Assembly (NCBI GenBank): GCA_029263455.1
Contig: JAJCXM010000034.1
Span: 62,001 to 126,000 of the forward strand
DNA from: Holophagae bacterium
GTDB lineage: Bacteria; Acidobacteriota; Holophagae; Acanthopleuribacterales; Acanthopleuribacteraceae
Direction: 5' to 3'
Length of the DNA stretch: 64,000 nt
Under the pieces are notes generated by a model, which saw nothing but the letters and a program-made list of their open reading frames with translations, was not told where the DNA came from and did no database searches. Shown one piece after another: positions 19,837-63,377 of the stretch (position 1 is its first letter; the number at the start of each line of letters is the position of its first letter). A program made the translations under genes and the position numbers.

Positions 19837-20079
19837 TTAGCTGCGGCCGTATTTACGCTGGAAGCGCTCGATACGCCCTTCGGTGTCAACGAGTTTCTGC
19901 TGACCAGTCCAGAAGGGATGACTGTCTGCCGTTATCTCGAGACGAACCTCGAAATGGTCCACGCCATCCACCTCTCGAACTTTGTCCGATGTCATGGTGG
20001 AATAAGTGAAAAATTCTTTACCGGTGCTGGTGTCTACAAAAACCACCGCATTTAGTTTTGGATGTATTCCGGATCTCAT
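19837..20079 (-). CDS. rpmE2: Ribosomal protein L31 type B
   Basis: An 80-residue 50S subunit protein. It begins [20 protein letters not shown] and has the family's [21 protein letters not shown] segment. There are no cysteines, so it is the zinc-free (C-minus, type B) form that often replaces the zinc form under zinc limitation. Monocistronic, with a terminator right after. Its upstream region holds the MITE at 20202-20349. Confidence 0.96.
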
Positions 20080-20201
20080 ATTGTTACTGGCCCTCCGCCT
20101 TGCTCAATTCGCACGAAGCGAAAGTATGACACATCTAGTCGCTTTTTGTCATCGGTTTTTTGCACAAAATTCATGAATTGACCGGTGCCATAGCCAATCT
20201 A

Positions 20202-20349
20202 GAGACTGTCGCATAAGTCGCTTCAAGGCCCAAGAATGTGAGTTTGGCTTCTAGCCAGAGGTTATAATCCGTTTGTACTCAGTTAAATACAGTAAATGTT
20301 GGTCGTTCTAACCGCTCCGTCGAATTATTAGGACTTATGAGACAGCCTC
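20202..20349. mobile_element. 148-bp MITE with 18-bp inverted ends and 6-bp target duplication
   Basis: Ends GAGACTGTCGCATAAGTC (20202-20219) and, inverted, GAGGCTGTCTCATAAGTC (20332-20349) match at 16 of 18 positions. Directly outside, AATCTA occurs at 20196-20201 and again at 20350-20355, a 6-bp target-site duplication. The interior has no open frame. This is a non-autonomous transposable element, placed between the start of rpmE2 and the serine-hydrolase-like gene. The matching transposase is not in the window. I cannot assign the IS family with certainty. Confidence 0.82.
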
Positions 20350-20498
20350 AATCTAGCATATAGAAACAGCGAAAACCCTGTCTGAGAATCGTCGATTGCT
20401 TGGTTTCCCATATTCCCTCATTGAACGAGTGAAAGGCAAAAGAGGCATGACGCAACGAAAAAGCCGGTTACAGGTTAGAATGAAAGCTTGGAGGCTAT

Positions 20499-21443
20499 GT
20501 GAAAAGGATATCGATTGCCTTGTTTTATACCCTATTCGTTTTGGGGCTTATTGGCGGAATCTATGGTTTCTTTCGCGCCCCGTTACCCATTGATCCAGTT
20601 GCAAAAGTGGAACAACTACTGGTAGATGCGCAAAAGTATGAGTTCAGGGTTTCTCGTTTCGAGCGTGAAATTTACGCTTCACCACCCCAATTTGAAGCCT
20701 TACTTGCGGGACGTGTAAGCGACAGTTGGATTTGTCTATTAGCCATGCAATGTGTGGCCGATAAGATGTTGACGCTTGACGACTCATTGAGCCTTTATTT
20801 TGATGAATTTGGTGAGCAGGACGCGGTCATAAAGATTCGACATCTTATGAACCATACATCTGGCATCACACCCAACGCCGCCTTTGCAGCGCCTACCCTT
20901 TTTGATGCCGCCTTTAGACCGCTAGCCTTCGATCCTGGCTCTGAGGTTCTCAATTGCTCCACCAATATCGAGTTGTTAATCGCTGTTATTGAAAAGGTTA
21001 GCCATGAACCAATTAGTCGTCGTATCGAAAGAGATCTCTTTGAACCCTTATCAATGACCGCAACACGTTGGCAAGACGATGGCACTTGCACGACGTCCAT
21101 TGATGACTTAGCAAAGTGGACGGCTTCAATGAACTCAAACCGCGTCCTTCCTCTTCGAGCCATGCTTGAGTTGTTAACGCCTCCCAAGCTCGTTTCGACT
21201 GGCTACGGTGATTACGCTGGCGGGTGGCTAATTGAGGAGGCGCAGGGGTTGAGGTGCGAATTAGCGATTAGTCGGGCCTCTGATCAGCAGATCGCTTTGA
21301 TTCGGTTCCCGGAAAAAACATGGACCGCCGTTTTGGTGGTTCAAGGTTCGCAAATAGACATAACGCAACTGGGCCTTGATGTGGGGCTTGCCTATCTAGA
21401 ACGAGAAGTTCGAGGCGCATCCAGACTAAAGCGGAAGGACTAA
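20499..21443 (+). CDS. Beta-lactamase-fold protein lacking catalytic residues
   Basis: A 314-residue protein with an N-terminal membrane anchor or signal (residues 6-24), then a serine beta-lactamase/PBP4*-like domain (IRHLMNHTSGI, DPGSEVLNCST, EPLSMTATRW). The nucleophile motif SxxK should stand where GRVSDSW is read: the Ser is Arg and the Lys is Asp. The YxN motif is replaced by CST. So this is a probable pseudoenzyme: fold retained, hydrolysis unlikely. GTG start with GGAGG 4 nt before. The stop lies 2 nt before the pgi ATG, so the two are cotranscribed. Possible role: binding a peptidoglycan-like ligand. Confidence 0.78.
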   Translation: MKRISIALFYTLFVLGLIGGIYGFFRAPLPIDPVAKVEQLLVDAQKYEFRVSRFEREIYASPPQFEALLAGRVSDSWICLLAMQCVADKMLTLDDSLSLYFDEFGEQDAVIKIRHLMNHTSGITPNAAFAAPTLFDAAFRPLAFDPGSEVLNCSTNIELLIAVIEKVSHEPISRRIERDLFEPLSMTATRWQDDGTCTTSIDDLAKWTASMNSNRVLPLRAMLELLTPPKLVSTGYGDYAGGWLIEEAQGLRCELAISRASDQQIALIRFPEKTWTAVLVVQGSQIDITQLGLDVGLAYLEREVRGASRLKRKD

Positions 21444-62447: not shown

Positions 62448-63377
62448 ATGACTAGACAACCCCGCATAAAATCGAAGCTTGATAATCAGGTTTATCACGT
62501 CATGACGCGTACCATTCGACGTAGTTATTTGTTTGATAACGATGGGCGTAAAGAGTGGATTTACAAGGAAATACAAACCTTGGCTTCGATCTACTGTGTT
62601 GACTTGTTTGCCGTTACGGTCATGAGCAATCACTATCACATCGTCTTGTCGATGCGTAAACCGTTACTTACGGAAGCACAGGTGCAGCAACGATTTGAGC
62701 GATATCAGGCACGCATTAAGCGGCCTGCGCCATGGCGGCCCTGGCTCTTTAAAGAATGGTCGAAAAGACTTACCGATTTATCTCGTTTCATGCAGGACCT
62801 CAATCGCAACATCTCCATCAACATGAATACACGTGATCGCACTCATGGCCATTTCTGGGGCGAGCGCTACAAGAGCGTGCTAATTGACGACGACGAAGGA
62901 CTCTTTCGCTGCATGGTGTACGTGGAAATGAATAGCGTGCGTGCTGGTTTATGTCAGCGCCCGTCCGAGTACCGGTTTTGTTCGGCCGGTCGATTTCATC
63001 TAGGCGGCGCCGGGGCCGCAGGCGTCACTATTCCAAAGATGAAGAATTTGAACTTTTGTCGCTCGGGTAAAGAAAGGCAACGAGCTTTTGGGTTGTTCTG
63101 CGATCATGTGGCTGACAAAGACGCTGAACGAGAAACCGAGTCCGCATACCTGATCCCTGACAAGGTTATGGGCTTTGCTACGGCAGAACTAGCTGACCTA
63201 GTGCTAAGACGGACGCAATGGGCGGTCTATTCGCTAGTTTTAGGATCCGAGGAATTCTGCCGCACCATGATGGACCGCTTCAAGATTCGTCCTCTAGCGG
63301 CGCACAGTAACCCGTATGCTTTAACGGACACGCTCTTCAATACCCATCAACGGGCCGGACCTCACGCTCACCACTAA
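62448..63377 (+). CDS. REP-associated tyrosine transposase (RAYT, IS200/IS605-type Y1)
   Basis: A 309-residue single-strand DNA transposase that acts on REP sequences. The HUH pair is AVTVMSNHYHIVLSM (HYH motif), with KLDNQVYHVMTRTIRR at the N-terminus. MQDLNRNISINMNTRDRTHGHFWGERYKSVLIDDD is the RAYT C-terminal block with the conserved G-x-RYKS-x-LI and candidate catalytic Tyr. ATG at 62448 has GAGG 6 nt before; the frame opens further upstream without a site. It is flanked by inverted REPs. RAYTs are domesticated IS200-like enzymes; mobility of this copy is not shown. Confidence 0.9.
   Translation: MTRQPRIKSKLDNQVYHVMTRTIRRSYLFDNDGRKEWIYKEIQTLASIYCVDLFAVTVMSNHYHIVLSMRKPLLTEAQVQQRFERYQARIKRPAPWRPWLFKEWSKRLTDLSRFMQDLNRNISINMNTRDRTHGHFWGERYKSVLIDDDEGLFRCMVYVEMNSVRAGLCQRPSEYRFCSAGRFHLGGAGAAGVTIPKMKNLNFCRSGKERQRAFGLFCDHVADKDAERETESAYLIPDKVMGFATAELADLVLRRTQWAVYSLVLGSEEFCRTMMDRFKIRPLAAHSNPYALTDTLFNTHQRAGPHAHH

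Follow-up and report, generated by a model that had tools for sequence, protein, structure and literature searches.

The window, by which we mean the whole 64-kb stretch of DNA that was analysed, contains a 148-bp element at 20202-20349 that lies beside rpmE2, with a serine hydrolase gene on its other side. The features of the locus are as follows.

19837..20079, minus strand: rpmE2-type ribosomal protein L31 gene (PF01197, 87 bits), its start 122 bp from the MITE
20196..20201, plus strand: left target-site duplication (TSD) AATCTA, with an exact second copy at 20350-20355
20202..20219, plus strand: left terminal inverted repeat GAGACTGTCGCATAAGTC, 18 bp, one base different from the IS1182 end GAGGCTGTCGCATAAGTC at G000:C34:331436
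20220..20263, plus strand: REP2-like segment within the MITE, the reverse complement of AACCTCTGGCTAGAAGCCAAACTCACATTCTTGGGCCTTGAAGC, a repeat that is present outside MITEs too
20243..20259, plus strand: internal hairpin TTTGGC-TTCTA-GCCAGA, with the loop TTCTA at 20249-20253
20332..20349, plus strand: right terminal inverted repeat GACTTATGAGACAGCCTC (GAGGCTGTCTCATAAGTC when read inward), identical to the IS1182 right end
20350..20355, plus strand: right target-site duplication AATCTA, read from the sequence
20499..21443, plus strand: beta-lactamase-fold serine hydrolase gene (PF00144, 67 bits), its start 149 bp from the MITE

The two arms of the element, 18 nt each, match at 16 of 18 positions (89% complementary) and enclose a 112-nt interior. 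The earlier note had pointed to these inverted ends, to the exact AATCTA duplication and to a non-coding interior; re-reading the sequence bears out the first two, and the third agrees with the open reading frame list, which has no frame of at least 50 amino acids inside the element. Within the 64-kb window, a search for the end motif with as many as three mismatches allowed returned two sites, both of them ends of the element, with 0.10 expected from shuffles. A promoter and terminator scan around the window MITE found promoter-like sites, with no excess over shuffled expectation; the change to either neighbouring promoter that the earlier note suggested is thus no more than a possibility.

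We searched the window genome (G000; 6.25 Mb in 40 contigs) for related sequences, and the genome counts given here are based on such searches together with about 123 kb of retrieved loci. BLAST returned 74 matches to the window element, about 20 of them near full length, so the absence of further copies, which the earlier note had named, together with the lack of an empty site in relatives, as what would speak against its reading, is not what was found. The end motif occurs at 112 sites genome-wide (46 + 66), compared with 10 (3 + 7) for a reversed control pattern, and is therefore far beyond chance. These results bear on the idea that nothing mobile is involved and that the element is either an inverted repeat arisen by chance or a static element, such as a structured RNA or a regulatory site. 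Folding through its own ends is possible, as a structured element would require, but the folding energy is no better than that of shuffles (z −0.96), an Rfam search at the locus was negative with the E-value limit set as high as 1, and the element is multicopy, flanked by TSDs, found nested and equipped with ends that it shares with an IS. We consider the probability of such a static or chance origin negligible; the genome-wide copies refute it. Short and non-coding, bounded by terminal inverted repeats and a TSD, present in many copies and ending like a resident autonomous element, the window element is a real MITE; taken alone, the one copy beside rpmE2 is nothing unusual.

The exact duplication had also been read as the mark of a recent insertion. 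The TSD is indeed exact, but the identity of the window copy is about 93% to the consensus of the family and 94–95% to its nearest sister, and the freshness of the insertion is not borne out. Contigs C10 and C31 terminate in a MITE and C12 begins with one, and these copies have the same sequence over 140 bp; because these members are mutually identical over that length, they are younger than the window copy, and some have moved recently. The end motif, at no more than one mismatch over 16 bases, was absent from six other genomes of the family. In G001, the sole congener compared, rpmE2 and the serine hydrolase gene stand in the same order with the element absent, and the intergenic region is 135 bp long, versus 265 bp in the window genome minus the MITE. 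The alignment of this region is gappy, its score of 67 being a modest excess over the shuffle maximum of 57. The comparison with relatives proposed in the earlier note thus yielded a conserved gene order without the element; the exact empty site (predicted as CCAATCTAGCA at the window locus) was not recovered, because divergence between the two intergenic regions prevents a reliable alignment. The comparison supports the view that the element was inserted in the window genome's own lineage.

A full IS with the ends of the MITE, which had been proposed as a further search, is present in the same genome. This intact 1,941-bp IS1182-family element lies on the same contig, outside the window (G000:C34:331436-333376; L062:937-2877), and is the one intact copy in the genome. 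Its transposase, encoded at L062:1176-2702, is a DDE-type protein of 508 aa that matches NF033551 (386.9 bits; cut-off 270), PF05598 and PF13751. The ends of the IS, GAGGCTGTCGCATAAGTC and GAGGCTGTCTCATAAGTC, are those of the MITE family, including the same left/right G/T difference at position 10; the left end of the window copy has one further change relative to the IS, G4 to A. Together with the many genomic copies, this IS supports the reading of the window element as a non-autonomous transposon, and, judging from the shared ends, it is the likely source of transposase for the MITE family. The partner transposase and the 18-bp ends are like those of the IS1182 family (NF033551), but the DDE transposase that marks membership is found in the autonomous partner only: the window element encodes none, and the 5–6-bp TSD of its family corresponds to a hairpin loop. 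The shared ends would also be expected if the MITE were a degenerate IS1182 remnant, derived from one full element by internal deletion. We regard this origin as highly improbable, however, because the similarity between the two interiors amounts to about 4 bp adjoining one end, and the MITE contains a REP2-like segment instead of IS sequence; it is in its ends only that the MITE matches the IS. Further IS ends at the ends of contigs C13, C39, C4 and C6 suggest additional copies that were collapsed. Separately, an apparent second, diverged IS1182 element is represented by ends at G000:C25:76925-77057 and G000:C35:1-133 and by a transposase C-terminus (93% identical) at G000:C6:33155-33527, in each case cut by contig ends.

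At loci with paired ends, we recorded the direct repeat lying flush with the ends and rebuilt the empty site by joining the two flanks; the duplication was set first and pairing was counted afterwards. Exact flush TSDs are present in 17 copies (5 bp in nine and 6 bp in eight). Across 14 non-redundant copies, an average of 4.79 of 7 positions outside the TSD are complementary when the loop is taken to be the duplication, compared with 1.57 of 7 when the loop is shifted to offset −1 or +1 and 1.2–2.1 at other offsets up to 20 bases. At least six of eight pairs form at 7 of the 17 sites, as against 0.5% of random positions. Example targets are AACAGGC-AAGAT-GCCTGTT (C6), CACAGGC-GTCTC-GCCTGTG (C19) and TTTGGC-TTCTA-GCCAAA (C11), and, with other stems, TCCGAC-ACGGAT-GTCGGA (C3 and C19) and CGGCC-GAAGAT-GGCCG (C38). 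These sites show that, as far as sequence records it, the family inserts so that the 5–6-bp duplication is the exact loop of a hairpin-forming palindrome. The window site is a weak palindrome, with five of eight pairs (reached by 3% of random positions) and −1.3 kcal/mol, and the window copy is atypical in that its palindrome is among the weakest of the site set.

A different outcome is known from IS1272, a member of the IS1182 family that targets hairpins (PMC5678879, PMC4923244): the target stem-loop is replaced and no TSD is left. A few copies in the window genome show no TSD, or two loop halves that differ, as such replacement would produce, but the 17 copies with exact 5–6-bp TSDs mostly keep both stem halves, and eight copies in another genus, described below, likewise have TSDs. 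We therefore consider replacement very unlikely as the way in which this family inserts. Because some copies have no TSD or have hybrid flanks, the intact IS included, recombination or another outcome must occur as well as insertion into loops.

The landing sites are concentrated in repeats. By a rough count, 74 of 100 ends adjoin halves of two repeat palindromes, a share that we state as about 70% because a few assignments are doubtful. REP1, ACAGGC-N4-6-GCCTGT, has 18 exact sites in the window genome, 1–4 in relatives and none in a reversed control for the window genome; it is a multicopy intergenic palindrome, as a REP is. The REP1 halves on either side of the intact IS differ in their loops (TTCCA and ATCCCT), and there is no matching TSD, as if flanks had been exchanged by recombination between copies. 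REP2, CCTCYGGCTRGAAGCCRGACTCACATTCTTGA, stands alone and also forms the first ~45 bp inside the MITE, and elsewhere in the genome (for example, G000:C11:13600) nested copies have inserted into the internal MITE loop TTCTA. Consistent with this, further end motifs in nested arrays stand outside a complete copy, at distances of about 104 and 53 bp. Because the hairpin target is carried inside the MITE, copies nest within copies and modular arrays result. A composite at C19:15285-15565 has two left ends, one right end and an ACGGAT duplication of its own; we infer that the outer left end and the inner right end were used together, a situation that resembles TnSha1, in which a third IR is used (PMC4923244). 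In another nested array (G000:C21:852-1266), a 105-bp MITE half stands in exact tandem duplicate, which suggests slippage or unequal exchange.

A second IS1182 lineage was found in G003, which belongs to another genus of the same family. This genome has eight identical IS1182 copies of 1.73 kb with ends GAGGCTGTGTGAAAA, and their transposase is 50% identical to that of the window genome over the N-terminal 187 aa. All eight copies lie in the 5-nt loop of GTAG-GTKGAGC-AGCTT-GCTCMACC palindromes (one of the eight with an imperfect stem) and have 5-bp TSDs (AGCTT, AAGCT or AGCCT). More than 100 intact copies of the target palindrome are unoccupied in G003, and the window genome has none. The G003 copies are an independent case of the loop rule in a second IS1182 lineage of the family. 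A crude survey of IS1182 elements in other phyla, with ends taken from four loci only, gave no convincing hairpin and TSDs of 4–7 bp (ACGT in two Bacteroidota); we therefore do not claim the rule for the whole IS1182 family. As a separate observation, GTAG-tagged hairpins often occur in runs on G003:C1 (for example, 79604-79925, 962696-963343 and 2960094-2960415) with a spacing of ~149–156 bp and 116 forward matches, possibly as a tandem or BIME-like repeat of its own kind.

Taking the copies, the partner IS and the target sites together, we propose, with a probability of roughly 0.9, that the MITE is a non-autonomous member of an IS1182-type family, presumably moved in trans, that inserts into hairpin loops with duplication of the 5–6-bp loop and so gives rise to nested arrays. 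In this mechanism, the 508-aa IS1182 DDE transposase would bind GAGGCTGTCKCATAASTC ends and move the MITE in trans. The target would be a palindrome, perhaps extruded as a cruciform; on each of its strands the transposase would attach an element end at the 5′ edge of the loop, and repair of the 5–6-bp staggered gap would then copy the loop.

What the transposase recognises in such a site is a separate matter. It may choose the sequence of REP1 (ACAGGC-N5-GCCTGT) and REP2 rather than hairpin structure, with a dimer recognising a two-fold symmetric site; about 70% of ends fall in just two repeat families, a symmetric site with a 5–6-bp stagger places the TSD on the axis without any extruded hairpin, and ISRm22 of the IS4 family behaves in this way in REPs, with 6-bp repeats (PMC1525189). 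By contrast, the CGGCC-GAAGAT-GGCCG (C38) and TCCGAC-ACGGAT-GTCGGA (C3) sites follow the rule as well as ACAGGC sites do, and the stem in G003 is unrelated. We give sequence recognition somewhat less than even odds. Structural (cruciform) and two-fold symmetric sequence recognition both fit the data, the variety of stems favouring the first and the dominance of two repeats the second. A more far-reaching reading, which we offer tentatively and consider possible rather than probable, is that in this bacterial family the IS1182-type transposases recognise DNA by its structure, attacking extruded hairpin loops and duplicating exactly the loop, and that the MITEs took up a REP hairpin as a landing pad, which would have produced modular nested arrays on the REP system.

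According to Siguier et al. (cited in PMC5678879 and PMC4923244), palindromes are the targets of some IS1182-family members, and because palindrome targeting is already known for IS1182 elements, the kind of system described here is known. The hairpin targets, with little preference for primary sequence, are like those of IS1272 and TnSha1 of staphylococci (PMC5678879, PMC4923244). IS1272 deletes the stem-loop or takes its place, with no TSD; the family in the window genome, by contrast, keeps both stem halves and duplicates the loop, an outcome that is drawn as the hypothetical 'pathway c' in Fig. 13 of PMC5678879. Insertion at a REP axis with a direct repeat has been described for ISPsy8 (IS3 family; 3 bp) and ISRm22 (6 bp), but these belong to other transposase families, and the parts of PMC1525189 consulted describe no MITE derivatives that carry their own target. 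A literature search, with ISfinder and subscription reviews outside its scope, found no paper on IS1182 MITEs that target hairpin loops. The worthwhile extension of this known kind of system is the base-exact loop rule together with self-nesting.

IS1182 transposition is poorly understood, and published outcomes extend from stem-loop replacement, in which no TSD arises, to the formation of ordinary TSDs. Because the duplication coincides with the loop to the base in two IS1182 lineages of one family, nature here supplies a clean data set on structure-guided targeting, and the loop-duplication pathway, which exists only on paper in PMC5678879, becomes simply testable. MITEs that contain their own target also pile up in REPs and break assemblies.

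A Y1 transposase gene (PF01797) lies between REP1 copies at G000:C16; it scores 54.6 bits against NF047646 (RAYT), below the cut-off of 80. REP1 around this gene is the arrangement of a REP/RAYT locus, as in REP/BIME systems with Y1 (RAYT) transposases (PMC2817692). The difference is that in the window genome the REP is the landing site and not the element; the moving part is the MITE, with ends of the DDE type. At G000:C3:353485-353922 (L252:886-1323) there is an IS200/IS605 transposase gene (NF033573, 68 bits), with REP2-like hairpins and a MITE a few hundred bases away. In the window itself, a Y1_Tnp domain (PF01797, 29 bits) is present at 62484-62693 on the plus strand, in a 349-aa open frame, and is among 11 Y1-type matches in the genome.
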